From: Anaerolineales bacterium
GTDB taxonomy: Bacteria > Chloroflexota > Anaerolineae > Anaerolineales > UBA6663
Reading direction: 5' to 3'
DNA: 34,115 bases
NCBI GenBank assembly: GCA_020845955.1
Contig: JADLEU010000133.1
Location: 1 to 34,115, forward strand
The notes under the pieces were generated by a model, which saw only the letters and a program-made list of their open reading frames with translations, had not been told where the DNA came from and did no database searches. Below are positions 1-32,126 of this stretch, piece after piece. The position numbers and the translations under genes are program-made. Every line of letters begins with the position of its first letter. The stretch's first letter is position 1.

Positions 1-1520
1 GTGCGCGGCAGGTCCGCGGTGATGACCAATCGAGCCGGAATGGCATAGGCTGGCAGCCGCTGCGCGAGGTGCTCGAACAACTGGGCCGTGCTGACGCCCG
101 GTTGCGGCTTGGGAACCACGGCGGCCTCGATCTGGTTGCTGCCCATGCCATCTGGCACGGCGAAGACAGCCGCCTCTTCGACGGCCACGTGCGCCAACAG
201 CGCCACCTCGATCTCGTCCAGCTCGACCCGATAACCGCGCGTCTTGACCTGGCGATCCTTGCGTCCCAGGTATCTGAGATTGCCATCCGGTAACTGCTGC
301 ACCAGGTCGCCGGTGCGGTAGAAGGTGTCTTCCAGGTACTCGAGCGCCGGGCGCCTATAGAAGCCGCGCGCGGTCTTGTCAGGCTGGCCCCAGTAGCCGC
401 GCATGACGACGCCGCCACGGATGAGCAGTTCCCCGACCTCCCCCGGCAGCATAGGCCGGTCGTCGCCGTCCACCACCAGCGCCTCGATGTTGGCGCACGG
501 CCGGCCAATCGGCACCGGCTCGTCATTCTCGGGCTCGAGGGCCGGCACGTGATAGTAGGTGCAGACGTTCGTCTCGGTCGGCCCGTACAGATTGCTGAAG
601 CGTGCCTGCGGCAGCTGGGCCATCAGCTCCCGCAGGTGTTTCGTCGGGAACGGCTCGCCGGCGAAGAGCACCCAGCGCAGCGCGCCCAGGTCGCGCGCCG
701 CCAGATTGCCACGCTGGAGCAACTGGATGAGGGCAAACGGAACCGAGTACCACACGCTCAGCCGTTCCTGAGCCATCAGCCGGGACAACGACGGCGGCAG
801 CTTGGTGACTGCCTCGGGAACGATCACGGTCGTGGCGCCGGCAAGGGCCCCGGCGAAATAGTCAAAGGTCGACAGGTCAAAGTGCAGCGGCGCGTGGTTG
901 CTCAGCCGGTCGGAAGCCGTAAGCCCATACGTCTGGGCCGCCCACTCGGCAAAGCTCAGGCCGCTGCGGTGCGTGTGCATGATGCCCTTAGGCGTGCCGG
1001 TCGAGCCAGAGGTGTACAAGATGTAGGCCAGGTCTTGCTCGACAATCGCCAGGTCGAGCGGGTCGCCCGGCAGAGCGTTGACCGCCTCCCACGGAACCGC
1101 CCGCGCCGCCAGCTCGCCAGGCCCCAGGCCAAGCACACACTCCAGCGGCGAGCTCGCTGCGATGATCTGGCTCAGTGGGTCTCGCTTGGCCTCGGCGCTG
1201 ACCACGTGCCGGATGCCGCAGTCCTGGATTACGAAGCCCACCCGAGCCACCGGCGCGAGCGGGTCCAAGGGGACATAGGCGGCGCCGGCAGCCAGGATCC
1301 CGTAGATGGCGACTGTGGAGTCCAGTCCTTTGTTCAGATAGATACCGACCCGGTCACCGCGGCGGACGCCCTGGGCCCGCAGCATGCGCGCCAGCCGGTT
1401 CGAGCGCTCGAACAGCGCTTGGTAGCTCAGACTCTCGGCGCCGCAGCGGACGGCCTCGTGCTCCGGGGCCTGCTCGGCCGCGTGGGCCACGGCCTGGTGC
1501 AATAGATAGCGGCTGCGCAT
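1..1520 (-). CDS. Stand-alone adenylation enzyme, probable L-prolyl-AMP ligase (PltF/RedM/CloN4-like), C-terminus cut by window edge
   Basis: The frame is open from an ATG at 1520 to the left edge, giving about 506 residues. AGGAGAG lies just upstream of the ATG. Adenylation motifs appear in order: YTSGSTGTPKG at residues 169-179, YGPTET at 312-317, YRTGDL, and a hinge of the form RKDRQVKTRGYR. Only the end of the small C-terminal subdomain, with the catalytic lysine, is missing. Aligned by eye on the GrsA pocket, the specificity residues are D215, L216, F219, Y258, L285, A287, L311, V319 and C320. This is one change from the DLLYLALVC pattern I recall for prolyl-AMP ligases feeding pyrrole-2-carboxylate synthesis. 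The enzyme would load an amino acid onto a free carrier protein, which should lie left of the window. The next gene upstream is a matching dehydrogenase, 21 bp away. An alternative is the acyl-ligase family linked to exosortase-type loci. The adenylation fold is certain; proline as substrate is inferred. Confidence 0.85.
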   Translation of the reverse strand, partial: MRSRYLLHQAVAHAAEQAPEHEAVRCGAESLSYQALFERSNRLARMLRAQGVRRGDRVGIYLNKGLDSTVAIYGILAAGAAYVPLDPLAPVARVGFVIQDCGIRHVVSAEAKRDPLSQIIAASSPLECVLGLGPGELAARAVPWEAVNALPGDPLDLAIVEQDLAYILYTSGSTGTPKGIMHTHRSGLSFAEWAAQTYGLTASDRLSNHAPLHFDLSTFDYFAGALAGATTVIVPEAVTKLPPSLSRLMAQERLSVWYSVPFALIQLLQRGNLAARDLGALRWVLFAGEPFPTKHLRELMAQLPQARFSNLYGPTETNVCTYYHVPALEPENDEPVPIGRPCANIEALVVDGDDRPMLPGEVGELLIRGGVVMRGYWGQPDKTARGFYRRPALEYLEDTFYRTGDLVQQLPDGNLRYLGRKDRQVKTRGYRVELDEIEVALLAHVAVEEAAVFAVPDGMGSNQIEAAVVPKPQPGVSTAQLFEHLAQRLPAYAIPARLVITADLPR

Positions 1521-1541
1521 GGTGTCTCTCCTGGCCGGTTC

Positions 1542-2687
1542 CTACAGGCCCAACAGCCGGGCGACGATGTTGCGCTGGATGTCAGACGTGCCCGAATAGA
1601 GGGTCCCACCGACGGCGTCCCGCAGGTCGCGCTCCACGCCCTGCTCGGTCATATAGCCATAGCCGCCGTGAACCCGGATGGCGTCCAGGCTCGACTGTAC
1701 GAAGCTCTCGCTCAAATAGAGCTTGGCCAGGGCCGCCTCCATGGCAGCCGGCCGGCCGGACTTCTTGAGCCAGGCCACGCGGTATAACAGCAGCCGGGCC
1801 GTCTCGAGCCGAACTTTCATATCCACGATGCGGTTGGCGACAGACTGGAACTTGCCGATTGGCTGACCGAATTGCTCACGCCCGCGCGCATATTGTACGC
1901 AGGTCTCCAATTGATGTTCCATCGCGCCGATGTGGCTCGCCAGGATGCAGCTGCGCTCCCACTCCATTGAGTGGTTGAAGATCTTCAGACCGGCGCCCTC
2001 CGGTCCCAGGCGGTGTTCGTCGGGCGCGAAACAATCTTCGAAGATCAGCTCGCCCATTGGCGAAGTTCGCAGCCCCATCTTGTCCATCGTGCCGCTGACG
2101 CGAAAACCTGGCGTGCCTTTTTCCACCACAAAGGCCGTCACGCCCCACATGCCTTTAGCCGGGTCGACGGTCGCAAACACCACGGCCAGGTCGGCCACCG
2201 GCGCGTTGGTGACGAACATCTTCGTGCCGTTGAGCACGTAACCGCCCTCACGGCGCTCGGCGCGCATGCGCAGGCTGTAGGCATCCGAGCCTGAGCCCGG
2301 CTCCGACATGCCGTGCGCGCCGATCAGTGCGCCGCTGATCAGCCCCGGCAGGTACTTCCGCTTCTGCGCTTCTGTGCCGAAGGACAAGATCGGCATCTGC
2401 ACGCTCCACATTTGAGCGTTGATGCCGAAGATCAGCCCATTGTCGCGGCAGCCATAGCCCAGCCCCTCCATGGTCAGCATGGTGGTCAGGATGTCGGCCT
2501 CCGCGCCGCCGTAGGCCTCCGGAAACGACAGGCCCTGGATGCCGAACTCGGCGCACTTGTTCCACTTCTCGCGCGAAAAGCAACTCTCGCGATCGCCCTC
2601 GATGACCGCCCCGTTCAGGCTCCCTTGCGCGAACTCCACCACGGCCTTGCGAAAGGCCACTTGTTCATCGCTCCACGAGAAATCCAT
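1542..2687 (-). CDS. Acyl-CoA dehydrogenase-family flavoprotein, probable prolyl-carrier-protein oxidase (PltE/RedW-like)
   Basis: This is a complete 381-residue protein of normal length for the family, starting at an ATG preceded by GGAAAGGAAGG. Family motifs include SEPGSGSDAYSL (128-139), GREQFGQPIGKFQS (269-282) and the closing segment LYSGTSDIQRNIVAR (363-377). In medium-chain acyl-CoA dehydrogenases the catalytic Glu lies in a YEGTS motif; here that position is Ser365. A glutamate stands instead in the upstream helix, in SMEWERS (E242/E244). Isovaleryl-CoA-type enzymes and prolyl-PCP oxidases use that region. The ending SGTSD and the string SMxWERxC match what I remember of PltE-type proteins. 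The likely reaction is FAD-dependent oxidation of prolyl-S-carrier to pyrrolyl-2-carboxyl-S-carrier, acting after the neighbouring ligase. A conventional acyl-thioester dehydrogenase is the alternative. The 131 bp to its right hold no gene and no clear terminator. Confidence 0.88.
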   Translation of the reverse strand: MDFSWSDEQVAFRKAVVEFAQGSLNGAVIEGDRESCFSREKWNKCAEFGIQGLSFPEAYGGAEADILTTMLTMEGLGYGCRDNGLIFGINAQMWSVQMPILSFGTEAQKRKYLPGLISGALIGAHGMSEPGSGSDAYSLRMRAERREGGYVLNGTKMFVTNAPVADLAVVFATVDPAKGMWGVTAFVVEKGTPGFRVSGTMDKMGLRTSPMGELIFEDCFAPDEHRLGPEGAGLKIFNHSMEWERSCILASHIGAMEHQLETCVQYARGREQFGQPIGKFQSVANRIVDMKVRLETARLLLYRVAWLKKSGRPAAMEAALAKLYLSESFVQSSLDAIRVHGGYGYMTEQGVERDLRDAVGGTLYSGTSDIQRNIVARLLGL

Positions 2688-2818
2688 CGCCTTCCTTTCC
2701 AGCTACCGAAAGCGGCGTGACCCCGGCGCGGCTTGACCTGTCCCGGCCGGGCCAGGCAGGCACGGTCTTGAGAATTCACGCGGCCAGCGGCGCTCGCGTC
2801 GAACGACCGTCGGTGGGC

Positions 2819-4093
2819 TCAGCTGCCGCCCGGCCCTGCTACTGAGGCGGCGCTCAGCATCCGCTGGCGCCGATGCCAGATAAACCGGAACAACGGTGTC
2901 GTCATCAGCGTGGTCACCAGCGCCATGGCCACCATGATGGCAAACAGCGCCGGAGCAATCACGCCGCGCTCGAGGCCGATGTTGAGGATGATCAACTCGG
3001 TCAGCCCGCGGGCATTCATCAGCGTGCCGATTGCCAGCGCGCGGTGTTTGGGTTCGCCGCGCCAGAAAGCCGCCAGGCCGCAAGCCACGCCCTTGCCCAC
3101 GATCGCCACCAGCAGCACCACAAGCAGAATGGCCCACAGGCTGGGCTTGAGCGCGACCAGCCCCAGCTGGGTGTTCAAGCCGGAGTACACAAAGAAGAGC
3201 GGCAGCAGGAAGGTCCGCACCAGGGAGCTGAGCCGCCGTTCCAGCTCACGCGTCACAATGCCCCGCGGCATCGCCACACCCAGCACAAAAGCCCCAAAGA
3301 CGGCATGAATGCCGATACGATCGGTGAAGTAGGCGCCCAGCATTAAGAGCATGATCAGAAGCGTCATGGCCAGGGCGCCCAGGTCGTTGTTGCGCTTGGC
3401 GCGGCGCTCGACCCAGCGCAGCGCCGGCCGCAGGACCCCCAGCACCACCAGCACATACACCAGGGCGCCGGCAAAGGCCCACAGCGCCACTCGGGTGTCG
3501 CCACTGAAGCTAGCCAACACAATCGCCAACAGGCACCAGGCAACAACATCGTTGACCGCGGCAGCGCCGAGCGTCACGGTCCCGAGCGGCGTTTTGTCGA
3601 TCCCCAGTTCCTGGAGGATGCGCGCCAGCACCGGGAAGGCCGTAATAGAGATGGCCGCGCCCATGAACAGCATCGCCTCCCAGCGGCCGACGCTGGCCGG
3701 AAAAAGGCTGAGGTCGTCCAAGAGCAGCAGCGCCAGGCCGCCGCCCAGTACAAATGGAGCCAGGATGCCGGCCAGCGACACCGCGGCCGCGCGCCCCATG
3801 CGATCGCCAATCAGGCCAATCTGGAACTCGACGCCGACCAGGAACATGTAAAGCACCAGGCCGACCTGGCTGATGACGTACACCACGCCAATGGTTGCCT
3901 GCGGAAACAGGCGTGCCTGCGTTTCGGGGAACAGCCAGCCGAGCACTGACGGGCCCAAAACGATCCCGGCCACCATCTCGCCAATGACAACCGGCTGTCC
4001 TAGCTTTTGCGCCAGCCGCCCCATGGCGCCCACAGCCACGAGGATGACGGCCGCCTGGAGGAAGAAATACTGCGAGAACTCGGCATTCGACAC
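2819..4093 (-). CDS. CPA2/CHX-type monovalent cation:proton antiporter
   Basis: The protein is an integral membrane exchanger of about 424 residues with roughly 12 hydrophobic segments. Motifs typical of the Kef/CHX/NapA branch are visible: GQPVVIGEMVAGIVLGPSVLG near residues 32-52, ITAFPVLARIL at 150-160, and an Asn-Asp pair in AAVNDVVAW at 181-182. The ND pair resembles plant CHX and electroneutral exchangers rather than the DD of electrogenic ones. No ATG fits. The best starts are GTG at 4093 or TTG at 4099; the TTG overlaps the stop of the glycosyltransferase upstream, so translation is probably coupled to it. The open frame extends further upstream, but that part lies inside the neighbouring gene. 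There is no RCK or TrkA-N domain after the membrane part. Why an antiporter is embedded in a glycan operon is not clear; pH or cation homeostasis linked to an acidic polymer is one idea. Confidence 0.85.
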   Translation of the reverse strand: MSNAEFSQYFFLQAAVILVAVGAMGRLAQKLGQPVVIGEMVAGIVLGPSVLGWLFPETQARLFPQATIGVVYVISQVGLVLYMFLVGVEFQIGLIGDRMGRAAAVSLAGILAPFVLGGGLALLLLDDLSLFPASVGRWEAMLFMGAAISITAFPVLARILQELGIDKTPLGTVTLGAAAVNDVVAWCLLAIVLASFSGDTRVALWAFAGALVYVLVVLGVLRPALRWVERRAKRNNDLGALAMTLLIMLLMLGAYFTDRIGIHAVFGAFVLGVAMPRGIVTRELERRLSSLVRTFLLPLFFVYSGLNTQLGLVALKPSLWAILLVVLLVAIVGKGVACGLAAFWRGEPKHRALAIGTLMNARGLTELIILNIGLERGVIAPALFAIMVAMALVTTLMTTPLFRFIWHRRQRMLSAASVAGPGGS

Positions 4094-4095
4094 GG

Positions 4096-5208
4096 TCAAC
4101 TCATGGAGCCGAATGGCGTCTCGACCGCTGAGCGCCGGCGCAGCCCCATCTTCGCCTGCAGTGCCAGCCGGCACACGGCGGGGCTGGCCGCATAGAGGCG
4201 CGCTACCATACGCGCCCGCCAATCTCGGGGATCCAACGCTTGCGCTTCGGCCAGCCAGCGCCGGATGCTTTCGGCTCGGCCGCCGTGATACACCGCCTGG
4301 CTGGCCATTAAGCGGAACAGGCGGGCGCGCTCCTGCGCCGGCAAGGCGCGAAACTCCGGCCAGCGGGAGATGGCCTCCTGCCGCTCCGGATCCCCAGTCA
4401 ACAGATCAACCAGCAGGTCATAGAAGACATAGACGCGCGTCGCCAGCGAACAGCGGCTGAAGCCTGCCAGTTTGATGGCGTTTTCGCGGCAGCGCGCCAG
4501 AGAGAGCCGGCGGCGCGTCGCGCCGGCGGTCAGCGTGATGTTGGTCTGGTGCACTCGGTACAGACACGTCGGCTGATCGATGTAGCCGAAGCTGGCCCGC
4601 TCCGCGACGCGCGTGGTGAACTCCCAGTCGGGACCGATGACAATTCCGGTGTCGAAGCCCAGTTTCGCTTCAGTCACCACCTGCCGGCACAGCACAATGC
4701 AGATCGGCGGCCCGAAGACGTCGGACGCCCGGATGAGGGCCTCGAGCAGATCGCCCTCAAAGGGGCCGCGGCGATGCGCGGAGAGCTTTGCCAACCGCTG
4801 GCCGCTGCCCTCGACGTAGTAGCCATCGGTATACACCCCCGAGCGCTCGGGATGCCCACTCAGATAGGCGCGGGTCAGATGCAGATGATCGGGTAGCCAC
4901 TGGTCGTCGGCGTCCAGAAACGCCAGGAATTCGCCGCGCATGCAGCGCAGAGCCGCGTTCCGGGCTGCTGCTTCGCCCAGGTTTGGCTGGGTGTGCAGCC
5001 GAATTCGCTCATCTTGGTAGCCCGCGGCCACTTCGGCTGTGCCGTCCGTCGACCCGTCGTTGACGATGATCAACTCCCAGTCAAGATAGCTTTGAGCCAG
5101 AATGCTCTCAATGGCCGCTCCGATAAAGCGCTCGGCGTTGTAGGCCGGCATCATGATGCTGACCAGGCCGGGTTGGAATTGCTCGCTGGGCGGCATCGGG
5201 CCATTCAT
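4096..5208 (-). CDS. GT2 family glycosyltransferase
   Basis: This GT-A glycosyltransferase has about 370 residues and no membrane segment. The N-terminal catalytic domain begins at VSIMMPAYNAERFIG (16-30), continues with the nucleotide-binding VNDGSTDGT (49-57), and carries the metal-binding DADD at 99-102 in FLDADDQW. The C-terminal half is helical and basic, and probably binds the acceptor. The start chosen is the ATG at 5208, which overlaps the TGA of the upstream GT4 gene in an ATGA junction. A longer frame exists but runs inside that gene. A second Met at residue 5 is an alternative start. It probably transfers a sugar from a nucleotide donor to the lipid-linked glycan at the cytoplasmic face. 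Donor and linkage cannot be read from the sequence. Confidence 0.88.
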   Translation of the reverse strand: MNGPMPPSEQFQPGLVSIMMPAYNAERFIGAAIESILAQSYLDWELIIVNDGSTDGTAEVAAGYQDERIRLHTQPNLGEAAARNAALRCMRGEFLAFLDADDQWLPDHLHLTRAYLSGHPERSGVYTDGYYVEGSGQRLAKLSAHRRGPFEGDLLEALIRASDVFGPPICIVLCRQVVTEAKLGFDTGIVIGPDWEFTTRVAERASFGYIDQPTCLYRVHQTNITLTAGATRRRLSLARCRENAIKLAGFSRCSLATRVYVFYDLLVDLLTGDPERQEAISRWPEFRALPAQERARLFRLMASQAVYHGGRAESIRRWLAEAQALDPRDWRARMVARLYAASPAVCRLALQAKMGLRRRSAVETPFGSMS

Positions 5209-6458
5209 AGGCTGCGGCCATCCGGCTGGAAACCGCCCGTTACCCGCGCGAACACCTGCTCCAATTGCCGGGCGGTATGGTCCCAGCCATGACATTGCTC
5301 GGCTTCCAGCCGCGCCGCCTGGCCTAACCGCTGCCTAAGCCCCGCATCCTGCGCCAGCCGCACCAGCGCGTCCGCCAGGGCGTTTTCATCGCACGGTGGC
5401 ACAATCAGGGCCGTCCGCTCGTGACTGAGCGTCGCGGGCTTGCCATCCTGGCCGGAGGCGATAATGGCCAGCCCGGCTGCTTTATAGTCGAAGAGTTTCA
5501 AGCCCGAGAATTCCTTCCAGCCGCAATAGGGCGCTACACCGACGTCCGCCTGGGCCAGTTGGGCCGCAAAATCAGAGGCCGCCAGTTGGCCGAGCAAGGC
5601 CACCTGCGCCTCCAGCTGGCTCTCGGCAATTTGCTGCCGGGCCTCGGCCTCGCCAACGCCCGAGCCAATCAACACCAGCCGCAGCGCCGGGACCGCCCGC
5701 AACGCGCGCACGAAGGCCTTGAGCAAAATGCTCACCCCATGCCAGGGGTAGAAACCGCCCAGATAAACAATGGTGACCGGCCCCCGCTCGGGGCAGCCCG
5801 TTTGAAATGGCCGCAGCTGCTCACGGCGCAGCAGGCGCACCACGGCCGTGCCGTTCTCGACAACCGTGACTCTGGCAGGACTGGCCTGCCATTGCTGGAT
5901 GAAATGGTCGCGCCAGCCATCGCCGGTGGCGATGACGTGCGTGGCTCGGCGGGCAATGGCGCGCATAATGGCGACCGAGATCTGCCGCTGCACCCCGGTG
6001 GGCGCAATCCCTTTGGCTTCCAGGTCATGTAGGTGATCGCCGTTATATTCGCTGACCAGCGGCCGCCGCAGCCACGCGGCGGCCAGGCTGCCACCATAAC
6101 CCATCCAACTCATGCGCTCGAAAAACACGTCGCACTCCCGCAGCTCCTGGCAGCAGGCCAGCGCGAAGCGCCAGCTGTCAAACAGCGCCGCGTAGGGCAG
6201 CCTCAGCTCAGACTGCACCCGCCGCACGACCCGTTCGAACAGCCGCAGTGGCCCGGCATCCAGCCACTTCGGCGCTACCCGGTCAAACCGCGCCAGGTCG
6301 TCGCTGCGCCAGATCGCGCCCTCAAGGCCCGCGACCACCCGCACCTGGTGGCTGCGGCCGGCCAGTTCCGACAGGACTTCACGAACGTGGTTGGCTGGTC
6401 CATCGTATGGCGGGCGGCGGATTTCCACGCCCTGCTGCATAATGAAGCCGATCCTCAT
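5205..6458 (-). CDS. GT4 family glycosyltransferase
   Basis: This 417-residue GT-B glycosyltransferase has an N-terminal acceptor domain beginning MRIGFIMQQGVEIRRPP with a DGPANHV glycine-containing loop. The C-terminal donor domain starts near VTIVYLGGFYPWHGVSILL. The motif around the donor phosphates is E-F-S-G-L-K-L-F-D, a Glu-x7-Asp variant of the usual Glu-x7-Glu. Its ATG overlaps the TGA of the next upstream GT4 (ATGA), and its own TGA overlaps the following GT2 start, so three glycosyltransferases are translationally linked. No signal peptide or membrane helix is apparent. It is probably a cytoplasmic enzyme extending the polysaccharide repeat. The substrate is unknown. Confidence 0.88.
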   Translation of the reverse strand: MRIGFIMQQGVEIRRPPYDGPANHVREVLSELAGRSHQVRVVAGLEGAIWRSDDLARFDRVAPKWLDAGPLRLFERVVRRVQSELRLPYAALFDSWRFALACCQELRECDVFFERMSWMGYGGSLAAAWLRRPLVSEYNGDHLHDLEAKGIAPTGVQRQISVAIMRAIARRATHVIATGDGWRDHFIQQWQASPARVTVVENGTAVVRLLRREQLRPFQTGCPERGPVTIVYLGGFYPWHGVSILLKAFVRALRAVPALRLVLIGSGVGEAEARQQIAESQLEAQVALLGQLAASDFAAQLAQADVGVAPYCGWKEFSGLKLFDYKAAGLAIIASGQDGKPATLSHERTALIVPPCDENALADALVRLAQDAGLRQRLGQAARLEAEQCHGWDHTARQLEQVFARVTGGFQPDGRSL

Positions 6459-7441
6459 GCCGCCACTTGTTCGATGGTCTCGCGGATCTGGACCTTGATG
6501 CGGTCAACGTTGAAGTCCTCGGCAACCTTGGCGCGCAGCGCCTCCCGCCGCGCTCGCCGCTCGGCCTCGCCCGCCTGGCAGTATTCCAACACCTTCTCAA
6601 CCAGCTCCCGCTCGGTGTAGTACAGGCTGGCTTCCGGCAGAAGCTCATCGGCGCCGTCCCATTGGTGCGCCAGGCAATAAGCGCCGGCGGCTATGGCCTC
6701 CATGGGCGAGACCTGCAAGCCCTCGGAATAACTGTTCGAAATGAAGATGTCAATTTGGCTGTACCACTCTTCGGGCCGCGTGACCCGGCCATAGAACGTG
6801 ACCTGGTCCTGCAGGCCGAGCTTGCTGACCAGGCTCTGCAAGGCGTGCGGATAGTCTGGAAAGAGCGGATGCTCTCCGCCGCCGATGTGGAGGTGCAGAC
6901 CGGGCTCTCGGCGGTTCAGCTCGTAAAAGGCCAGGATGAGTTCGTAGACCCGTTTCCGCGGCGCCAAATTACATAGGATGCCCAGGTGTCCGCCAAACGC
7001 CCGCGGGTGCGGTTGGAAGCGCTCGAGCGAAACCGCTTCCGGGATCACAATGGCCTTCGCTGCCTGCTGGGGATACCGAGCCATGAACTCGCGTTGCTTG
7101 GCCCGGCTGACCAGGATAACTTTGTCGACAGCCTCCCAGTTAATCCCATCGGCCCAGCGGTACAGTTCGTAGCGGTGCAGCCGGGTCACGATGCCGCAGA
7201 CCTTGGGTAACTGGCTGGCAGCGCCCAGCAGCTCGCTCGCCCATTCAAAGAAGACGACGTCGCTCGAGCTCAGGAACCGGCGCAAATCCCGCTCACCCAG
7301 CGCCCGATTGAACCGCTCCTGGAAGAAAGGCAGGCTGGTTTGCCGGGGGTGAAACAGACGCGTCCGGTGATGGCGGGCGAGCTCGTCGTAGACCTCCTCA
7401 AAAAAGGCCCACGTCTCGGTAATGACGATGCCCAGGTTCAT
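6455..7441 (-). CDS. GT4 family glycosyltransferase
   Basis: The protein has about 328 residues from the ATG at 7441, where the sequence MNLGIVITETWAFFEEV starts a Rossmann strand and helix. An upstream ATG at 7480 in the same frame would lie inside the epimerase gene and is less likely. The donor domain has LGILCNLAPRKRVYELILAF followed by YGRVTRPEEWYSQIDIF. The Glu-x7-Glu motif is intact in SEGLQVSPMEAIAAGA. The N-terminal domain is short, so it is a compact GT4. It lies 11 bp after the epimerase gene and its TGA overlaps the next start by four bases. Substrate unknown; a cytoplasmic role in glycan assembly is inferred from context. Confidence 0.87.
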   Translation of the reverse strand: MNLGIVITETWAFFEEVYDELARHHRTRLFHPRQTSLPFFQERFNRALGERDLRRFLSSSDVVFFEWASELLGAASQLPKVCGIVTRLHRYELYRWADGINWEAVDKVILVSRAKQREFMARYPQQAAKAIVIPEAVSLERFQPHPRAFGGHLGILCNLAPRKRVYELILAFYELNRREPGLHLHIGGGEHPLFPDYPHALQSLVSKLGLQDQVTFYGRVTRPEEWYSQIDIFISNSYSEGLQVSPMEAIAAGAYCLAHQWDGADELLPEASLYYTERELVEKVLEYCQAGEAERRARREALRAKVAEDFNVDRIKVQIRETIEQVAA

Positions 7442-7452
7442 CGCCGCGGCGC

Positions 7453-8607
7453 TCACGCTTGGGCCACGAACTCCAGGCACTGGCCCGTCAGCAGCACGTC
7501 GACGATCCGCTCGGCGGCCCGGCCATCCCCATAGGGGTTGGTGGCCCGGGCCATGCGCTCATACACAGGTGGGTTGTCCAGCAAGCCGTTCACTTCGGCC
7601 ACCACGTGCCCTGGCTCGGTCCCGACCAGTTTTACGGCGCCGGCCTCCACGGCCTCCGGCCGCTCGGTCGTTCGGCGTAGCACCAGCACCGGCACGCCCA
7701 GGCTGGGCGCCTCCTCCTGGATGCCGCCCGAATCGGTCAGGATCAGTTTGCTGTGTCTCATCAGGTGTACCAGGCTGAGGTAATCGACCGGCGGCGTGAG
7801 CGTGATCCCCGGCACGCCGCCCAGCAGCGCGTGGACCGGCTCCCAGATGTTGGGGTTGCGGTGCACAGGGTAGACGATCTGGTATTCCGGCCGGGTGCGG
7901 GCCAATTCGCTCAGCGCCCGGCAGATCTGTTCAATGGGCTGCCCATGATTTTCGCGCCGGTGTGCCGTCACCAGGATCAATGCGCGGCCATGCCCGTTGA
8001 GTCTGTCAAGCAAGTTGAAATCCGTCAGGGTCTGTTCTGCGTCCCGATCCAGCGGGGCGGTGGCGGCCCACTGCAGGGCGTCAATCACTGTGTTGCCCGT
8101 GACGTGCACGTTCTGGGGATCGATCCCCTCGCGCAGCAGGTTGCCTCGGGCGATGGGCGTCGGGGCAAAATGCAGGTCGCACACATGGTCGGCCACCACC
8201 CTGTTCATCTCTTCCGGAAACGGGTTGGCGCGATCGTAAGTGCGCAGCCCGGCCTCGACGTGCGCCGCGCGCACCTGGCGGTGATGCGCGGCAATCGTGG
8301 CGGCCATCACGGTCGTTGTGTCGCCCTGCACCAGCAGCCAATCAGGCTGCCGGGCGGCCAGCAGCTCGTCCATTGCCAGGAGCACCCCGGCCGCAACCTG
8401 GCTGGGCGTCTGATTGGCACGCATCAGGTCAAGGTCATGATCCGGCACAATCTGGAACAGGCGCAAAACCTGGTCTAGCATTTGACGATGTTGGCCGGTT
8501 ACGCACACGGTCACCTCGGCCTGCTCAGGATAGCGCTGAAGCTGCCGAATGACCGGCGCCATCTTGATAGCCTCGGGTCGTGTGCCGATCACAATCAACG
8601 CTTTCAT
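7453..8607 (-). CDS. wecB: UDP-N-acetylglucosamine 2-epimerase, non-hydrolysing
   Basis: The 384-residue protein matches the family's usual length. It interconverts UDP-GlcNAc and UDP-ManNAc in the cytoplasm. Visible family motifs are GTRPEAIKMAPVI (8-20), QGDTTTVMA (94-102, with Asp96), HVEAGLRTYDRANPFPEE (116-133, with Glu118 and the Glu pair 132-133), VTGNTVIDAL, the histidine of TAHRREN, and the C-terminal SGGIQEEAPSLGVPVLVLR. All expected catalytic acids are present, so it should be active. Its ATG overlaps the TGA of the upstream GT4 gene. The result is a ManNAc donor for this glycan, or a precursor of ManNAcA, although no UDP-ManNAc dehydrogenase is in the window. The symbol mnaA would fit equally well. 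Confidence 0.95.
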   Translation of the reverse strand: MKALIVIGTRPEAIKMAPVIRQLQRYPEQAEVTVCVTGQHRQMLDQVLRLFQIVPDHDLDLMRANQTPSQVAAGVLLAMDELLAARQPDWLLVQGDTTTVMAATIAAHHRQVRAAHVEAGLRTYDRANPFPEEMNRVVADHVCDLHFAPTPIARGNLLREGIDPQNVHVTGNTVIDALQWAATAPLDRDAEQTLTDFNLLDRLNGHGRALILVTAHRRENHGQPIEQICRALSELARTRPEYQIVYPVHRNPNIWEPVHALLGGVPGITLTPPVDYLSLVHLMRHSKLILTDSGGIQEEAPSLGVPVLVLRRTTERPEAVEAGAVKLVGTEPGHVVAEVNGLLDNPPVYERMARATNPYGDGRAAERIVDVLLTGQCLEFVAQA

Positions 8608-9722
8608 GGTTGTCTGTCCAGCGCGCGCTCATAGGCGGCCAGCGTTGCCTCGCCGGCTCGTTTCCACGTATACCGTTCCAACACCCGCTCGCGCAGGCCG
8701 TTCGTGGCCTGCGCCTGGAGCGCGGCTTCCACGGACCTCCGGATCGAGGCCTGGTCATCGGGCCAGCAGTACCAGGCCAGATCTTCAAAATAATCGCGCG
8801 TCGAGCCAATCGCGGTCGTGACCACCCGGCAGCCCGCTGCCGCCGCCTCCAGGCTGACCAACCCCGGCGTCTCGCGCCAACTCGGCAGCGCATGGACCGA
8901 GGCCAGCGCGAAGATCCCCGGCAGCTCCTCGTGCGGCAGGTGGTCGACGAAGGTAACGTTGCCGCGCGCGGCGGCCCGCGCTCGCAGGCGGCTGCCATAG
9001 TCGCCAGCGGCCGCCATGGCCTGGCCGATGATGACGATGGGCACAGGCAGGTCTCGCAGCGCCTCGACCAATCCGAGCTGATTCTTCACCGGGTTGAGCG
9101 TGCCCACCTGCAGCACAAAATCCCTGACACGGTACTGATCCACAAAGGCCTGACTGCGCTGCGGGAGCTGGGCATAGTGCGTCGGGTCAATGCCGTTTGG
9201 CACAACGTCGCTCTTCTCCTCCAGGCGGCCACCGAGGGCGAACATCCGCTGCAGCAGGCGCGTCTCGGAGCGCGAGTTCGGCAGCAGGCGCGCCGCCGCC
9301 TGCAGCAAGCGCCGTTGCGCGCGCCAGCGCCGGTTGAGCGGCCCCTTCAGGTACTGCCAGGACACGTAGGCGCGCCGCGCCCGGCGCTTGCCCCACGCGC
9401 GCGCCAGCGCGCGCCAACGCGGCCGCTCGACCACGGCGGCCTCAAACCAGTAGGGATACATCGTCCAGAAGATCGGCGAGAGCACGACCGGCAGCCCTTT
9501 GCGCTGCAGCGCCTGGCAGACCGCCCAGGCCGGCTCGGCTTCCTGGATGTTGAAGACATGCGCGAGATCGCAGGCCGGCAAACGGTCCAGATCGTCGGGC
9601 GCCCGAGTTTCGACCATAACCCCCAGGCACTGCAGTGCTTCCAACGTTTTGCGTGCCTGCACGGTGTCCCCGCCGGGCAGTTGCGCTGCATCGGGCCGGC
9701 TGTTGACAAACAAAACACGCAT
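8604..9722 (-). CDS. GT4 family glycosyltransferase
   Basis: This is a 372-residue GT-B enzyme starting MRVLFVNSRPDAAQLPGGDTV, with a typical glycine loop in the acceptor domain. The middle is unusually rich in Arg and Trp (about residues 100-150), suggesting contact with membrane or with an anionic acceptor. The donor domain begins at FVLQVGTLNPVKNQLGLVEAL. The Glu-x7-Glu motif is complete in RETPGLVSLEAAAAG. Its TGA overlaps the epimerase ATG. The start has no strong Shine-Dalgarno sequence, and 66 bp separate it from the barrel protein gene upstream. It is probably a cytoplasmic glycosyltransferase; the sugar is not predictable. Confidence 0.88.
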   Translation of the reverse strand: MRVLFVNSRPDAAQLPGGDTVQARKTLEALQCLGVMVETRAPDDLDRLPACDLAHVFNIQEAEPAWAVCQALQRKGLPVVLSPIFWTMYPYWFEAAVVERPRWRALARAWGKRRARRAYVSWQYLKGPLNRRWRAQRRLLQAAARLLPNSRSETRLLQRMFALGGRLEEKSDVVPNGIDPTHYAQLPQRSQAFVDQYRVRDFVLQVGTLNPVKNQLGLVEALRDLPVPIVIIGQAMAAAGDYGSRLRARAAARGNVTFVDHLPHEELPGIFALASVHALPSWRETPGLVSLEAAAAGCRVVTTAIGSTRDYFEDLAWYCWPDDQASIRRSVEAALQAQATNGLRERVLERYTWKRAGEATLAAYERALDRQP

Positions 9723-9788: not shown

Positions 9789-11030
9789 TCAGCGCCGCGC
9801 CTCGGCCGCGGCCAGACCGGCCGGCGCCCCCAGGCGCTGGCGTTCGTCCATCAGCAGGCTGTCCGCGAAGAACTTAGCGGCCCAGTTCAATAGCCGGTAT
9901 GGCTCATATTCGCCGTATATCGGCTGCGATCCCCCAACCCCCCCTCGCAGGCCCGGTCGGGACGAGCGCGTGTTCTGCGCCTGCATCACGTGGCGGTTGG
10001 CCGTTCGAGCGGCCTGTTGGTAGCGCGCCTCACTGGTCAAGGCGTACAGCTCCAGCCAGATCTGAGCCATCTGCGCCGTGCCCGTCAGGCAGCTCCATTC
10101 CACGCTCGCGCGCCACCCGTTTCCATAGCGGCCGCGAAGGCAGCCGTCGGCTGTCTGCCGCGCCATGGCCGCGTCGGCCGCCCGGCGCGCGGCGCCAATC
10201 AGCGCCTCGTCGCCCAATAGCAGGCCGGCCTGGAGCACACCCTCAATCGTGTAGGCAATGGTGTGGGTCAGCGGGTCTTCCTCGGGCGTGAACCCGGCGT
10301 TGGCAAACCAGCCATCGGGCATCTGCTGTGCCAGCACCCAGCGCAGGCCGCGTTGCGCGGCGGCCTGATGGCCGGGATCGCCGGCAGCCTGGTGGAGCTG
10401 CAGCAGCGCCCAGGCCGTGCGCGCGTTATAGGTGTTGCCGTGGCCCAGCGGCGTGAACTGGCGCCAGCAGCCGTCTTTATCCTGGACGGCGGCCAGCCAG
10501 TCGCCGGCGCGCCGGGCAGCCGCCAGGTACTCCGCCCGGCCGGTTTCCGCGTGGGCGCGCACCAACCCTTGGATGATCTGACCCGTGTCGAACACCAATG
10601 GCGATCGTTCCCAATCGGGCCAGAGCGGCCCGATGGGGAAAGCCCCACCCTCCAACTGCACCGTCAACAGCCAGTCGGCCATCCGCAGCGCGCGCTCGCG
10701 AAACTCCGCCTTCCCGGAGAAGTCGGCAAAGTCCAGGAACGTCGGGATTATGTAGCCGGTGGTCTCCGGATAGAGCGGTCCCCACTCGCCGGTGCGCATG
10801 TCGTAGAAACTGGCAACACCCAGGTTGCCGGCTGCCTCCTGGGCGGCGCACAGCCACGCCAGACTGGCCCGCAGGTGATCGGCCGGGGCGCCGGCGGCGT
10901 GCGGCAGATTCCACTTGCCGCGCGCGACACCGGCCAGCACGGCCGCATCCCCACGGGTGCGCAGCGCCCAGACCGCATCCCGCCAGTGCCGGTCGACTCG
11001 CCGGCGCACAAGCTGCTTGAGCAGCATCAT
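9789..11030 (-). CDS. Cytoplasmic alpha/alpha-barrel protein, putative glycan-modifying enzyme (paralogue 1)
   Basis: The protein has about 413 residues from the ATG at 11030, which overlaps the TGA of the AsnB-like gene upstream in an ATGATG string. It is mostly helical, with repeated pairs of helices of the kind found in six-hairpin toroids. No signal peptide is seen. Conserved blocks shared with the gene at 16165-17316 are YPETTGY (87-93), VFDTGQ (146-151), PDGWF (238-242), a THTIAY segment, SCLTG (313-317), YGEYE (372-376) and NWAAKFF (382-388). The invariant acids, aromatics and histidine suggest an active cleft for a sugar chain. Uronate epimerases, lyases and glycosidases use this fold, but I cannot assign the reaction. 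Lack of an export signal means it acts before export, on lipid-linked glycan or a precursor. Confidence 0.8.
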   Translation of the reverse strand: MMLLKQLVRRRVDRHWRDAVWALRTRGDAAVLAGVARGKWNLPHAAGAPADHLRASLAWLCAAQEAAGNLGVASFYDMRTGEWGPLYPETTGYIIPTFLDFADFSGKAEFRERALRMADWLLTVQLEGGAFPIGPLWPDWERSPLVFDTGQIIQGLVRAHAETGRAEYLAAARRAGDWLAAVQDKDGCWRQFTPLGHGNTYNARTAWALLQLHQAAGDPGHQAAAQRGLRWVLAQQMPDGWFANAGFTPEEDPLTHTIAYTIEGVLQAGLLLGDEALIGAARRAADAAMARQTADGCLRGRYGNGWRASVEWSCLTGTAQMAQIWLELYALTSEARYQQAARTANRHVMQAQNTRSSRPGLRGGVGGSQPIYGEYEPYRLLNWAAKFFADSLLMDERQRLGAPAGLAAAEARR

Positions 11031-12916
11031 GCTGGCGACAGCTCCCTGGCCGCGCGCCGGCTGCCCGTGCGCACGCCGTCGACAAACTGCCGGTGCCACA
11101 GCTCGACCGACAGCAGCGCCCCCAGGCGCACGGCATGATCATCGCCAGACATGTGCGCCTGCACGAGCTGGCGCACATATTCGGCACTAAAATAGCCGCG
11201 CTCGAGGCAGCGCTGGCTGAGCAGCACGTCAGTCACCCAGGCGCGCAGTTCGGTCCGGAACCAGAGGTTGTAGTCCTTATAGGGCCGCTGTTCGGGGCCG
11301 GCCAGCCGGCCCAGGCCAACCCGGCGCAGGTGCCACCGGACCAGGCTTGCCGCCCGCAGGGCCACCTCGCGCGCGCAGGCCGTTTGCGGCAGATTGGTGG
11401 GCGTAACCGGCACCTGGGCGAACGCGGGAAACGCCTGCAGGAAGGCCTGCTTGACTAACTCCCGGCCATAGTGAAACCCCGGCGGAATGCGCAGGCTGAA
11501 CTCAACCAGGTCGTTATCCGCAAATGGCAGCCGCACCACGGCCCGAGGACGCACCATTTCGACGCCGTTGAGCGTCATGCGCGGCACGCGATTAGTCAGG
11601 TCGATATACAGCCGCTGAACCGCCAGCTGCGTCACGCCGCTTTCACGGATGGCGGCCTCATAGGCGCCCAGTGCCTCGTCCCCAATCGCCTGCTGGAACG
11701 CCGGAGTGAACAGGCGCGGGTGCTCGGGCAGGTCGAAGTCCAGCACGTCGTAGTCACGATAGGCTTCCAGATGGGTGCAGAGCCGGTCTTCGTCGGCGTA
11801 GTCGGCCCAATGGCGCGGCCGCAGCCCAAACCCGAACATGGCGTCGCCCATGAAACCTTTGAAGATGATCTGGGCGTGCTGGGCCTCGGCCTCCAGCGCG
11901 GCGGCCGCGTGCAGGTTGACGACGTTGCCCATGCCATCGCTCTGCCCGACGACGCGCTCGGCCTTGTCGAGCAGCCAGCTCGGCTTGAGTTCAAAGAAAT
12001 AATGGCGGGCGCCAGCCACCCGCGCGCACTCGGCCGCGTAGCGCACGTCGTCGGCGCCCGGGATACCCCAGGTAAACGTGGTCACGGGCTGTCCATTGCT
12101 GGCCTCCGCCATCAGGCCCAACAGCAGCCGTGAATCCAGCCCCCCGCTCAGCATCAGGCCCGCCGGGGCTGGCGTGTGGATCTGGCGCCGCACGGCCCGG
12201 CGCAGATGATGCAGCAATTCCTCCCGGAACTCGCCCTGGCTGCGGTGCGGATAGCGCTCGGGATAGCGCAGCGCATAGTAGCGCTTCAAGCGCACTTGTC
12301 CCTGGTGGTACGTCAGCACCGACCCTTGCGGCAGCAGCTGCACTGCCCTCATGAAGGTGCGCTGGCCCAGCACATGATCAAAGGTCAGGAACTGAGCGAT
12401 GGCGACTCGGTCCACGTCGCGCGGGACGTCAGGATCGGCCAGCACGGCCCGCACACCCGCTCCAAACACAAACCCATTGGGCAGGTGCGCGTAGTAGAGC
12501 GGATGCAAGCCCAGCCGGTCGCTGATCAACAGCAGCTTGCGCGCGCGGCGGTCCCAGATCACGGCTGAAAAAGCCCCGTTCAGCGGCGCGGCGAAATCGT
12601 CGCCGTATTCCAGGTACCGGTTCAGCAGAAACTCGGCCTGGCTGGCGTTGGCCGAGCCGCCCAGGGCCTGCCGCTGCGCCTCGAAGTCGTACAGCTCGCC
12701 GTCCATCACCAGCCCCAGGCTGCGGCCGTCGTTCCAGGCCGGTTGCGCTGCTGCGTTCACAATCCCGAGGCTAACCCGGCCGAAGCCGAACTCGGCCTCG
12801 TGGTGCAGCTCGCGCCGGAAACGGGCCTCGGGTTCAAGCTGCTGGGCCATGTCGGCCAGCAGCGCGCCCACGCCCTCGCCGTCCGTTTGTTTGAACAACC
12901 CGATCAGTCCTGGCAT
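11027..12916 (-). CDS. Asparagine synthetase-like protein with degenerate glutaminase and synthetase sites
   Basis: The 629-residue protein has the full two-domain layout of glutamine-dependent asparagine synthetase. The glutaminase-like half spans about 1-210 (MDGELYDF, SDRLGLHPLYY) and the ATP-pyrophosphatase half about 225-600, with the PP-loop LSGGLDSR (256-263). Two key features are missing. The nucleophilic Cys2 is Pro, in MPGLIGLF, with a strong GGGAGGAG ribosome site fixing this start. The usual GEGADE motif reads GFMGDA (354-359), losing both glutamates. The PP-loop is kept, so ATP binding and acyl-adenylation remain possible, as in beta-lactam synthetase relatives that also lack the cysteine. 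It probably cannot use glutamine. It is coupled by ATGA to the barrel protein downstream and follows a sulfotransferase gene. A role in amide or ester formation on the glycan is only a guess. Confidence 0.85.
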   Translation of the reverse strand: MPGLIGLFKQTDGEGVGALLADMAQQLEPEARFRRELHHEAEFGFGRVSLGIVNAAAQPAWNDGRSLGLVMDGELYDFEAQRQALGGSANASQAEFLLNRYLEYGDDFAAPLNGAFSAVIWDRRARKLLLISDRLGLHPLYYAHLPNGFVFGAGVRAVLADPDVPRDVDRVAIAQFLTFDHVLGQRTFMRAVQLLPQGSVLTYHQGQVRLKRYYALRYPERYPHRSQGEFREELLHHLRRAVRRQIHTPAPAGLMLSGGLDSRLLLGLMAEASNGQPVTTFTWGIPGADDVRYAAECARVAGARHYFFELKPSWLLDKAERVVGQSDGMGNVVNLHAAAALEAEAQHAQIIFKGFMGDAMFGFGLRPRHWADYADEDRLCTHLEAYRDYDVLDFDLPEHPRLFTPAFQQAIGDEALGAYEAAIRESGVTQLAVQRLYIDLTNRVPRMTLNGVEMVRPRAVVRLPFADNDLVEFSLRIPPGFHYGRELVKQAFLQAFPAFAQVPVTPTNLPQTACAREVALRAASLVRWHLRRVGLGRLAGPEQRPYKDYNLWFRTELRAWVTDVLLSQRCLERGYFSAEYVRQLVQAHMSGDDHAVRLGALLSVELWHRQFVDGVRTGSRRAARELSPA

Positions 12917-12931
12917 GGCTCCTCCCGCGGC

Positions 12932-13684
12932 TCAGGCGGCCTGTGGCACAAGCACCTCGTCAAACATGGCCGCATAGGGCGTGCCAGCATAGCGGCCGCG
13001 CAGCGCCTCGAAATTCAAAATGACCTCGCGTAGATCGTCGCTGGTGTGCTTCAGCGTCTTGCCCTCCACCGGCAGCCGATGGATGCCCAGAAAGTCAAAC
13101 ACCCCGCTGAGAGTTGCGTCGCGCCGCGTCAGCAGGTCCTCGTAGACCAGCTTGTGTTTAGGCAACTGCAGCCGGCTGACGTATGCCTCCAGCGTCTCGT
13201 CGGCCTGTTCGCGCTCCTGCAGGTATTGGTCGAATTGCGCCGGATCGACTTCTAATGGCGGCATGCGATCAGACTCTTTGTACAGGTTCCAGTTGCCCGA
13301 GGCGTCGTGCAGCCGCTTTGCGTTGATGCGTGAGACGACAGCCTTCACCCGGTTGCCCCGCTGCATCTGGATGACCCGGCAGCCCGTTTCGTGCAGCAGG
13401 CGCGCAAAGCCCTCCTTGTCGAGCACATCCACCAGCTTGGTCTTGAATCCCACGGCAGCAGCCCGGCCAACGAGCGGCGGCGTGAGGAACTCTCGCGCCC
13501 AGGCCAGCTGCTGCTCGGCGGTTTGACCCTCCTGCCTGAGCACGGCAAAGCGCTCGTAAATCGCCTGCACATCGGGGTGGTTTTCCAGCAGGCTCGTCAG
13601 GTACGTGCTGCCGTCACGCTCGATAAACAAGAGGACGTAGGACGTGACTTGATTTCGCAGAAAATAGCGAGGTAGACCAGCCAT
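12932..13684 (-). CDS. Small sulfotransferase-family protein (Stf0/NodH-like)
   Basis: The 250-residue protein begins at an ATG preceded by TGGAG. A beta strand (VTSYVLLFIE) is followed by the PAPS 5'-phosphosulfate loop RDGSTYLTSLLENHP (23-37), a variant of the common RSGSTxL. The second cofactor motif is RVIQMQRGNRVKAVVSRINA near residues 103-122, with the Arg and Ser expected to contact the 3'-phosphate. The C-terminal part has a KLVYEDLLTRRD segment typical of these enzymes. It has no signal peptide. It would transfer sulfate from PAPS to a hydroxyl of the glycan or glycolipid in the cytoplasm. It lies between a GT2 gene and the AsnB-like gene in the same transcription unit. A kinase-like or other P-loop role is unlikely given the motif order. 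Confidence 0.78.
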   Translation of the reverse strand: MAGLPRYFLRNQVTSYVLLFIERDGSTYLTSLLENHPDVQAIYERFAVLRQEGQTAEQQLAWAREFLTPPLVGRAAAVGFKTKLVDVLDKEGFARLLHETGCRVIQMQRGNRVKAVVSRINAKRLHDASGNWNLYKESDRMPPLEVDPAQFDQYLQEREQADETLEAYVSRLQLPKHKLVYEDLLTRRDATLSGVFDFLGIHRLPVEGKTLKHTSDDLREVILNFEALRGRYAGTPYAAMFDEVLVPQAA

Positions 13685-13713
13685 GATGAATGCTCCATCC
13701 TTTTCTCGGCAGC

Positions 13714-14850
13714 TTACCGGCCGGCCAGATACGATTTGACCAGAATGGCGAGCGCACCTCGATTAGCCAGCCAGGCTGGCTGCCGGCGCAGCGCATGCCA
13801 AACCGCCGCGCGCGCCTGCGCCAGCCGCCCTTGTCCATAGTTTCTATAGGCCAGTCTCATGGCTGCCTGGGCGATCTCCTGCCGGCCTCGACCCCGCAGC
13901 CCGCCAAACTCGGCCGGCAGGTGGTGATAGACGTTTTCCAAGAAACTGACCGGGTCACCAGTCTTGGGTAGCTCAATCCAGGCAGCAAAGTGCTGGGCCA
14001 GCAGCCGCCCCTGGTCGCTCAAAAGCGCTGGATGCAGCCGCGCTGCCTCGCGCAGGTGGGTCTGCCCCTGAGCGTACTGGTCAGCTAGGTAGCTTTGGGC
14101 AGCCGCGCGCAAGTGCGCCCGGCTGTAGGCCTGGTCGCGCCAGCGGCCCCAGGCGGCCGGCAAGTCCGCGCGGGCGAACAACTTGTCCAGGACGGCAAAG
14201 GTAGCCGCCGTCATCTGGGTGCCGTGCCGCGTCATCTGCGCCGTGTGAAAGCGATAGCGCGAGACAGGCTGTTCGATGCAGGCCATTGGGCATCCGGCCA
14301 CGGCCAGCCGCAGCCACATGTCCCAATCCTCGTAGGACCGCAGGTCCTCGTCGAAGTAGCCCACCTTCGCTTGCCAGTCCCGGCGCAGCAGCACGCTGCC
14401 CACGTGCAGCGGGTTGCCCAACACCAGTTCCGCCGGGTCGGCCGGCAGCCGCGAGGCAAACGGCTGCCCGGTCGGCTGGCCGGTCTCGTCGATCAGGACC
14501 GCCGGGCCGGCTGCCAGGCCCAGATCGGGCCGCTGGTCAAAGACGGCCGCCAGCCGGCTCAACTTCGCAGGCAGAAACTCGTCGTCCGAGTCAAGGAACG
14601 TCACAAGCGGGCCAGTCGAATTGCGCAAGCCGGTGTTGCGCGCCGCCGACAGGCCGCGATTGGGCTGGAACACGTACCGCACACGCGGATCCGCACAGCC
14701 CTGCGCCACCCGGGCCGTATCGTCGGTCGAGCCGTCGTCCACCACCACGACCTCGAAATCGGGGTAGGTCTGGTCAAGGGCGCTTTGGATCGCCAACCCG
14801 AGGTAGCGCGCCTGGTTGTAGGCCGGGATGATGACGCTGATTTGTGGCAT
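13714..14850 (-). CDS. GT2 family glycosyltransferase
   Basis: This is a 378-residue GT-A enzyme. It starts ISVIIPAYNQARYLG, followed by VVDDGSTDDT and RGLSAARNTG, with the metal-binding Asp triad in LDSDDEF near residue 93. After the catalytic domain comes VGYFDEDLRSYEDWDMWLRL, with the ED pair of the likely catalytic base. The last 150 residues form a helical, Arg/Ala-rich tail seen in many GT2 proteins of surface glycan loci. It resembles the GT2 at 4096-5208 in layout but is not a close copy. A soluble cytoplasmic enzyme is likely. It is separated by 78 bp from the membrane GT2 gene upstream. Confidence 0.88.
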   Translation of the reverse strand: MPQISVIIPAYNQARYLGLAIQSALDQTYPDFEVVVVDDGSTDDTARVAQGCADPRVRYVFQPNRGLSAARNTGLRNSTGPLVTFLDSDDEFLPAKLSRLAAVFDQRPDLGLAAGPAVLIDETGQPTGQPFASRLPADPAELVLGNPLHVGSVLLRRDWQAKVGYFDEDLRSYEDWDMWLRLAVAGCPMACIEQPVSRYRFHTAQMTRHGTQMTAATFAVLDKLFARADLPAAWGRWRDQAYSRAHLRAAAQSYLADQYAQGQTHLREAARLHPALLSDQGRLLAQHFAAWIELPKTGDPVSFLENVYHHLPAEFGGLRGRGRQEIAQAAMRLAYRNYGQGRLAQARAAVWHALRRQPAWLANRGALAILVKSYLAGR

Positions 14851-14928
14851 GGCGCCTATCGGCAGTGTCTCAGCGGAGAGCCGGCTTGGGCGTGCCCGTG
14901 TCCAGGAACCGGCGGCCGCGTCAGGGTT

Positions 14929-16122
14929 TCAGCGGGCGTCGCCGTGCGCGGTGCGGACCCAGGTGACGCCTCGGCGGCCGTAGCGCGCGCTCAGGGCCAG
15001 CCAGGTCCGCCAGACGACGAAGACCGGGCCGGTCAACATGACCAGGTAGGCGCTGGCAGGCGCCCGCTCCAGGGCCAGCCCGGCCAGCGGATAAATGAAG
15101 AGCACGCCCAGGACGCCTCCCCAGGCCCAGACCAGGCCGGGAGGAAACACGGGGCCAAAGTAACCGTTGATCAAGAGCTGTGCCAGGAACAGAGCCGCGC
15201 TGATGACCGTCACCGTCGAGAAAGACGGCAGGTAAGCCTGCAGCGCGCCGTCGATCAAGGCCAGGTCGCGCCGCTTAAGGCCATCCAGCAGCAGGCGGCG
15301 CGCCAGGGGCCGGCTGGCCTCGCGCGTGCCCCGCAGCCAGCGCGCGCGCTGGGCCCGCGCCTGCAGCCACGAGCGGGGCGCCTCACCGTAGCCCCGGGCT
15401 GCTGGCTCGTAGATGATCTTGGTGCCCTCCATCAGAAGGAGCTGCCGCATTTGGTAATCCTCAGTCAGGCCCTTGCCCCAACCTAGCTTCTGCAGCACTT
15501 CGGCGCGGAAGCAGATCGAATCGCCCATGTTCTTGGCCGACCACCCCAGGTTCGTGCGCCCGAGATTCTGAAAGCGGTTGTCGACCAGGAACATGGCCCG
15601 CGTTAAGGCCGGGAACCAGCCATCTTCGGGGTTGCTGATGATGTGCTGGCCTTGGATCACCTGCGCCCCGGCCTCCAGGCGGGCGTTCATGACCCGCAGG
15701 AAGCTGCCCTCGACGCGCGTATCCGAATCGAAGACCATCACGGCGTCGCACGAGCCGTCCAGAACCCGGCGTAACAGCCAGGCCAGCGCATCGCCTTTGC
15801 CCGTGCGCGGCCCTTCGTTGCGCTCGTGGGCGACCGCGCCCGCCTGCTGGGCCAACAGCGCCGTGTTGTCGGAGCAGTGATCGGCCACCACGTGGATGGC
15901 CAACAACTCCGGCGGGTAATCCTGTTGGCGCAAGTGCTCGACGGTGGCCGCAATCACCGACGCTTCGTCGTGTGCCGGAATGACGATTACGAAGCGGGTC
16001 GCGGGCGCGCGGTCAGCGCTGGCGGGCGCCGGCCGCGGCCTCACGGCAGCCACGGCCAGGAGCACGAGATAACCCACCGGCAACAGCACCAACCCCAGCG
16101 CGATTGCGGAAACAATGCCCAT
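14929..16122 (-). CDS. Membrane GT2 glycosyltransferase of the cellulose-synthase/hyaluronan-synthase type
   Basis: This 397-residue protein has one N-terminal membrane helix (about 4-26), a cytoplasmic GT-A domain, and about three C-terminal membrane helices (about 300-375). The processive-type signature is complete: an Asp pair region VVADHCSDNT (78-87), DSD at 132-134, TED at 220-222 and QRARW at 258-262. Enzymes with this D, D, D, QxxRW set polymerise or add sugars at the membrane and can pass the product through their own helices. Here an ABC exporter is encoded nearby, so it may instead start or cap the chain. It is shorter than cellulose synthases and lacks a PilZ domain. Substrate unknown. 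Confidence 0.88.
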   Translation of the reverse strand: MGIVSAIALGLVLLPVGYLVLLAVAAVRPRPAPASADRAPATRFVIVIPAHDEASVIAATVEHLRQQDYPPELLAIHVVADHCSDNTALLAQQAGAVAHERNEGPRTGKGDALAWLLRRVLDGSCDAVMVFDSDTRVEGSFLRVMNARLEAGAQVIQGQHIISNPEDGWFPALTRAMFLVDNRFQNLGRTNLGWSAKNMGDSICFRAEVLQKLGWGKGLTEDYQMRQLLLMEGTKIIYEPAARGYGEAPRSWLQARAQRARWLRGTREASRPLARRLLLDGLKRRDLALIDGALQAYLPSFSTVTVISAALFLAQLLINGYFGPVFPPGLVWAWGGVLGVLFIYPLAGLALERAPASAYLVMLTGPVFVVWRTWLALSARYGRRGVTWVRTAHGDAR

Positions 16123-16164
16123 ATTTGTGCCTAATCGGCCACCATGCCGCCAGCCCGGCCGCGC

Positions 16165-17316: not shown

Positions 17317-17343
17317 GCAGCCTCTCGTCTTCGTGCGTGTTGA

Positions 17344-17387
17344 GCAGCCAGGTCGCCAGCACAGGCCGGGCGCTGGCGCGCGGCTGC
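17344..17387 (-). other. Two-tier intercistronic hairpin between GT39 and barrel-protein genes
   Basis: Read on the plus strand, GCAGCC (17344-17349) pairs with GGCTGC (17382-17387), and CGCCAGC (17354-17360) pairs with GCTGGCG (17372-17378) around an 11-base loop. Four unpaired bases on one side and three on the other separate the tiers. On the transcribed minus strand it follows the GT39 stop at once and precedes the barrel-gene ribosome site. No T-run follows, so it is more likely an mRNA-stabilising or processing element than a strong terminator. Confidence 0.5.
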
Positions 17388-17391
17388 CAGT

Positions 17392-21274: not shown

Positions 21275-21279
21275 TGATA

Positions 21280-21286: not shown

Positions 21287-21335
21287 AGTGGTGATGCTGG
21301 TCATTCAAAATACCGTGCCTTACTCATTCAAATGC

Positions 21336-32102: not shown

Positions 32103-32126
32103 CGGGCGGCGGGCGGGCGCGGCGGC

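Follow-up and report, generated by a model that had tools for sequence, protein, structure and literature searches.

The window, by which we mean the whole 34,115-nucleotide stretch that was analysed, is contig C133 of an Anaerolineales genome of 6.06 Mb in 431 contigs, and its base 1 is a contig end. Its kin were found among Anaerolineae MAGs (for example G001, of the same family), and all genomes compared were MAGs. The antiporter, glycosyltransferases, epimerase, amidotransferase and Wzt/Wzm genes all lie on the strand of the pair of genes at this contig end.

3..1520, minus strand: stand-alone L-proline adenylating enzyme (A), 506 aa, assigned by profile and specificity code
1542..2687, minus strand: predicted prolyl-ACP dehydrogenase/oxidase of the ACAD fold, AnaB/PigA-like, assigned by profile and structure-database matches
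2819..4222, minus strand: CPA2-type Na+/H+ antiporter, which adjoins the cassette also in L125 and G017
4096-5295, minus strand: GT2a, first gene of the glycan core (whole core 4096..9722), the five genes of which are collinear in related loci
5205-6458, minus strand: GT1a, glycan core
6455-7480, minus strand: GT1b, glycan core
7453-8607, minus strand: UDP-GlcNAc 2-epimerase-like, glycan core
8604-9722, minus strand: GT1c, glycan core
9789..11099, minus strand: (alpha/alpha)6-toroid protein, with a model similar to unsaturated glucuronyl hydrolase, GH76 and sugar epimerases
11027..19011, minus strand: AsnB-like amidotransferase, Sulfotransfer_3-like, two GT2, toroid-like and PMT_2-like genes, several matches being below Pfam cut-offs
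19167..20444, minus strand: Wzt-type ATPase, matching O-antigen Wzt (6amx/6oih/8dku) and TarH/TagH
20441..21304, minus strand: Wzm-type permease
21336..22847, minus strand: BNR-repeat protein, which precedes wzm in all extended loci
29304..34113, minus strand: acyl module of AT3w, fatty acyl-AMP ligase (FAAL), NadE-like and AsnB-like genes, found also at cassette-free loci

The C-terminal ~20-30 residues of A are missing, cut by the contig start. The enzyme matched the AMP-binding profile at 1.3e-88, AA-adenyl-dom at 400 bits (cut-off 317) and PltF (6o6e) at 351 bits. Its pocket code, D-LFSLALVC, agrees at 7/8 positions with the published consensus for stand-alone L-proline enzymes, L(L/F)YLALVC (PMC3874040), and of the 12 full A genes from cassettes, 11 carry DLFSLALVC and the other departs from it by a single change. 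Other codes, for example DMLSLGVQC, were carried by the A enzymes of the NRPS/PKS loci L069-L100, which stand beside many AnaB-like dehydrogenases, and the substrate there may be other than plain proline. The nearest solved relative of the window dehydrogenase was AnaB (4irn, 472 bits), and its scores lay below the NCBIfam equivalog cut-offs for both PigA (452 vs 500 bits) and RedW (414 vs 650 bits). In a tree it was split from the generic ACADs of the same genome with support of 100/100 and, judged from its sequence, it is a member of the prolyl-carrier clade. A single origin of the glycan-linked dehydrogenases was unsupported, their labels being spread over a Chloroflexota group of poor resolution. 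The original prediction had placed a proline-type ligase and a prolyl-oxidase-type flavoprotein beside glycan genes, and this was borne out by the profiles, the AnaB match and the shared strand.

Wzm, Wzt and glycosyltransferases are encoded in one cluster, as in an ABC-transporter-dependent polysaccharide locus. The nearest Wzm orthologues found (63-69% identity) come from G068, G070 and G072, where each shares contig and strand with the cassette. The structural model of the toroid protein (9789-11099) suggests a carbohydrate-active protein, and reading the SQH-like gene as a terpene cyclase was disfavoured by this predicted toroid fold. With respect to the neighbours, four loci (window 2819-4222, L125:11199, L104:5286 and G017), from two phyla, have a CPA2-type Na+/H+ antiporter next to a prolyl/halogenase cassette. 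Because halopyrroles may act as protonophores, the antiporter could conceivably be protective. The segment 22949-29219 holds opposite-strand w22949 and w25218, which match no Pfam family, and a PQQ beta-propeller, and these recur near several such loci. Relatives of the AT3w-FAAL-NadE-AsnB module were seen with an XrtA-type ligase and ACP in G072, G429 and G172, some of the loci being cassette-free. Matching the last 166 bp at the right end of the window against the other contigs gave no extension.

The genes sought beyond base 1 were found on two further contigs of the same genome. C342 encodes a free carrier protein (ACP1), a flavin halogenase (HAL), an AT3 acyltransferase, an Rv2949c-like chorismate lyase, a PaaK-like ligase, a second carrier (ACP2) and a fatty acyl-AMP ligase. 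The phosphopantetheine serine of ACP1 was invariant across 13 aligned carriers. HAL scored 417 bits against ChlB4, 410 against PltA and 406 against Mpy16 (Bmp2, about 165-175) and has the FAD (GxGxxG) and WxWxIP motifs; on these scores and motifs it is a predicted PltA-type carrier-dependent halogenase, and the predicted group in this genome is accordingly a halopyrrole. The end of C342 and the start of C207 share an exact 127 bp overlap, which is an assembler k-mer overlap, and C207 adds a second AT3 of the same family, GT2, GT4 and a Wzy-like gene. Joining C133 to C342 by overlap or frame failed, only 8 nt being common (CCGCGCAC), and the expected end of A, TSTGKINRREL, was not read in the first 171 bp of C342. 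We joined the two because of synteny, the single occurrence of each part in this genome and matching GC, leaving the base-level junction as a gap. A second aromatic acyl module was observed on C342/C207 (L036:3105-7094 and L192), consisting of the chorismate lyase, PaaK-like ligase, ACP2 and fatty acyl-AMP ligase, then AT3; it could add 4-hydroxybenzoyl groups, and no such module was seen in the other loci.

A dehydrogenase scan of the genome contigs yielded 80 loci. In seven MAGs besides the window (G068, G070, G072, G076, G429, G242 and G017) a long locus was contained in one contig. The gene order around wzm/wzt and the glycosyltransferase core were those of the window, and the cassette had one fixed position, between this core and a GT2/Wzy block. 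Upstream and on the same strand were BNR-wzm-wzt, GT2, AsnB, GT1b, GT1a and GT2a, with sulfotransferase-like and PMT genes in most; downstream, most had a Wzy-like gene together with GT2, GT4 and the sugar epimerase Epi4. Wherever an Anaerolineae glycan locus extended far enough past A, the dehydrogenase and A were followed by ACP1 and AT3; halogenases numbered 0, 1 or 2 and AT3s three at most, and their order varied. The carrier protein and acyltransferase sought left of base 1 were found after the pair in related genomes and, in the genome studied here, on C342. In L061 the order was dehydrogenase-A-ACP1-HAL-AT3, the order of C133 plus C342. The whole window arrangement was present on one 98-kb contig of G017, a member of the same taxonomic order as the window, as NaH-A-ACP1-AT3-HAL with the closest HAL, except that the dehydrogenase was absent from the locus and one of 49% was encoded on another contig.

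Four loci (G172, G309, G417 and G272) carried the core without the cassette, which suggests that the cassette is a modular decoration. Among 396 genomes of the class, the core marker GT1b was present in 14 and the dehydrogenase in 18, with both in 9 (Fisher p=1.5e-10, a value which overstates independence since the genomes are related), and the two were on one contig in 8 of these 9. The pair and the wzm/wzt glycan locus showed strong co-occurrence, which the original prediction had asked to be surveyed, and recurrence of the same order in many Anaerolineae MAGs argues against a chance neighbour of the glycan genes. Of the other 67 dehydrogenase loci, just four had an AT3: L048, L053 (the G023 locus), L060 and L063.

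The genome has three AT3 genes in total. The donor with which AT3 proteins acylate carbohydrates of the surface is acyl-CoA. Its 3'-phosphate is bound in OafB by Arg14 of R-x10-H and Arg74 of RxxR, and His25 is at the thioester (PMC9833829), and a 2022 review favours acyl-CoA over ACP as the AT3 donor (PMC9558356). The AT3 of C342 matched PF01757 at 102 bits (cut-off 31). All cassette AT3s retain the TM1 catalytic His, and neither arginine motif was intact in any of them: every complete N-terminus has Asn, Met or Leu in place of Arg14, and the second Arg of RxxR was absent from every one. As controls, seven annotated plasmid AT3s had each motif intact in 5 of 7, one miss being a likely start-site truncation. 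Retention of the His with loss of both CoA 3'-phosphate arginines makes a carrier protein the likely donor, and ACP1 is encoded next door. A sequence search of the PDB with the AT3 gave no match; Foldseek with its model (pLDDT 92) gave HGSNAT as the only credible fold (probability 0.99, E weak). HGSNAT moves acetyl across the membrane onto a sugar amine. The membrane acyltransferase at 29304-30350, named in the original prediction as a candidate transferase, was discarded as the pyrrole transferase, as its FAAL/AsnB/NadE module also adjoins cassette-free cores. The AT3s encoded with the carrier protein, on C342 and C207, are the likely acyltransferases.

These data point to a modular, Dlt-like, AT3-based system which places (halo)pyrrole-2-carboxyl groups on an exported glycan, a reading to which we assign a probability of roughly 0.6; the pyrrolyl-decorated glycan envisaged at the outset is supported at the level of genes and their order. 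In the pathway we propose, A would load L-proline onto ACP1, as suggested by its family, specificity code and gene order, and the dehydrogenase would oxidise prolyl-ACP1 to pyrrolyl-2-carboxyl-S-ACP. In HAL-bearing loci, including this genome via C342, the PltA/ChlB4-type halogenase would then halogenate the tethered ring. The last step, transfer of the acyl group across the membrane or at it, would fall to the AT3s encoded with ACP1, the acceptor being a hydroxyl or an amine on a glycan that the neighbouring glycosyltransferases presumably assemble and Wzm/Wzt presumably export. For the narrower proposal, a class of AT3 that takes its acyl group from a dedicated carrier, not CoA, and installs halogenated pyrrole-2-carboxyl (perhaps 4-hydroxybenzoyl) on an exported polysaccharide, we consider the odds to be even.

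An alternative is that the product of the cassette is a small natural product of the halopyrrole type, or a glycosylated metabolite, with its own acceptor, and that the glycan locus is a mere neighbour. Dehydrogenase relatives outside Chloroflexota are mostly in NRPS/PKS-type clusters, and in L048 and L063, both Chloroflexota, the order dehydrogenase-A-halogenase-ACP-AT3 was seen beside an NRPS with C, T and TE domains and not glycan genes, so the acceptor may be other than a glycan. We nevertheless consider this alternative unlikely, since the cassette holds one position in the seven MAGs and the window, neither the window nor the glycan loci that were mapped contained an NRPS/PKS with a C or KS megasynthase, and the core also occurs without the cassette.

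It is less probable still that the transferred group is prolyl or dehydroprolyl, or that the substrate of the halogenase is a different acyl-ACP, for example 4-hydroxybenzoyl-ACP2. AnaB, the closest solved relative, forms dehydroproline and stops there, so that oxidation to pyrrole is not assured; ChlB4-type halogenases also use other ACP-bound aryl groups, and the chorismate lyase, PaaK-like ligase and ACP2 are also on C342. Against this, the halogenase adjoins ACP1, a pairing which recurs in loci without a chorismate lyase match, and PltA and Mpy16 act on pyrrolyl carriers. That C342/C207 derive from another locus or a contaminant, leaving the window pair as an incomplete cassette, is very improbable: C133 and C342 share no 127-bp k-mer overlap and genome contamination is 4.42%, but the genome holds a single prolyl A, a single such dehydrogenase and a single PltA/ChlB4-type halogenase, the two contigs supply the genes that come after A in intact loci, GC is 0.64 vs 0.66, and the G017 contig carries A, ACP1, AT3 and the closest HAL together.

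If the glycan-decoration reading is correct, thiotemplated secondary-metabolite chemistry of halogenated aromatic acyl groups is joined to surface-glycan assembly, AT3 proteins have a second donor type, and halogenated surface polymers are predicted in Anaerolineae. To our knowledge there is no other case of such surface chemistry, a halogenated-pyrrole coating of an exported glycan. A literature search, which was not exhaustive, gave no precedent for pyrrole-decorated polysaccharides or ACP-dependent AT3. The cassette AT3s also provide natural proteins for testing the argument over acyl-CoA versus ACP donors (PMC9558356).

With respect to known systems, the clorobiocin/coumermycin arm CloN1-CloN7 performs L-Pro activation, carrier loading, pyrrole oxidation and transfer to a sugar hydroxyl (PMC11218499), and the same pyrrole-2-carboxyl steps are predicted here. 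In those pathways, however, CloN2/CloN7 and a second carrier decorate an antibiotic deoxysugar with no membrane AT3, whereas the present cassette has membrane AT3s and lies in an export locus; the substrate of Clo-hal is the aglycone, whereas HAL is predicted to act on the tethered pyrrole. The trio of A, dehydrogenase and carrier is shared with anatoxin AnaB/AnaC/AnaD, PltE/PltF/PltL, RedM/RedW and PigA/PigI, which feed PKS/NRPS or related small-molecule lines and not, as here, AT3s and a Wzm/Wzt glycan locus. A similar ligase/ACP/AsnB module, like that of XrtA/exosortase EPS loci (TIGR03098 ligase, TIGR03108 amidotransferase), is present in the same Anaerolineae loci and is distinct from the pyrrole cassette. 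OafB, OatA, ExoZ, Asm19 and HGSNAT share the membrane fold, the catalytic His and acylation at the membrane with the cassette AT3s, but use acyl-CoA; the cassette AT3s lack the Arg of R-x10-H and the second Arg of RxxR. In teichoic acid D-alanylation, DltA, DltC and DltB are an adenylating enzyme, a small carrier and a membrane transferase acting on a cell-surface glycopolymer. The cassette shares this logic of A, ACP and membrane transferase, but DltB is an MBOAT and its cargo D-alanine, whereas here the transferase is a PF01757 AT3 and A has a proline code, so that the cassette is not itself a Dlt system; its cargo is, moreover, predicted to be modified on the carrier prior to transfer.
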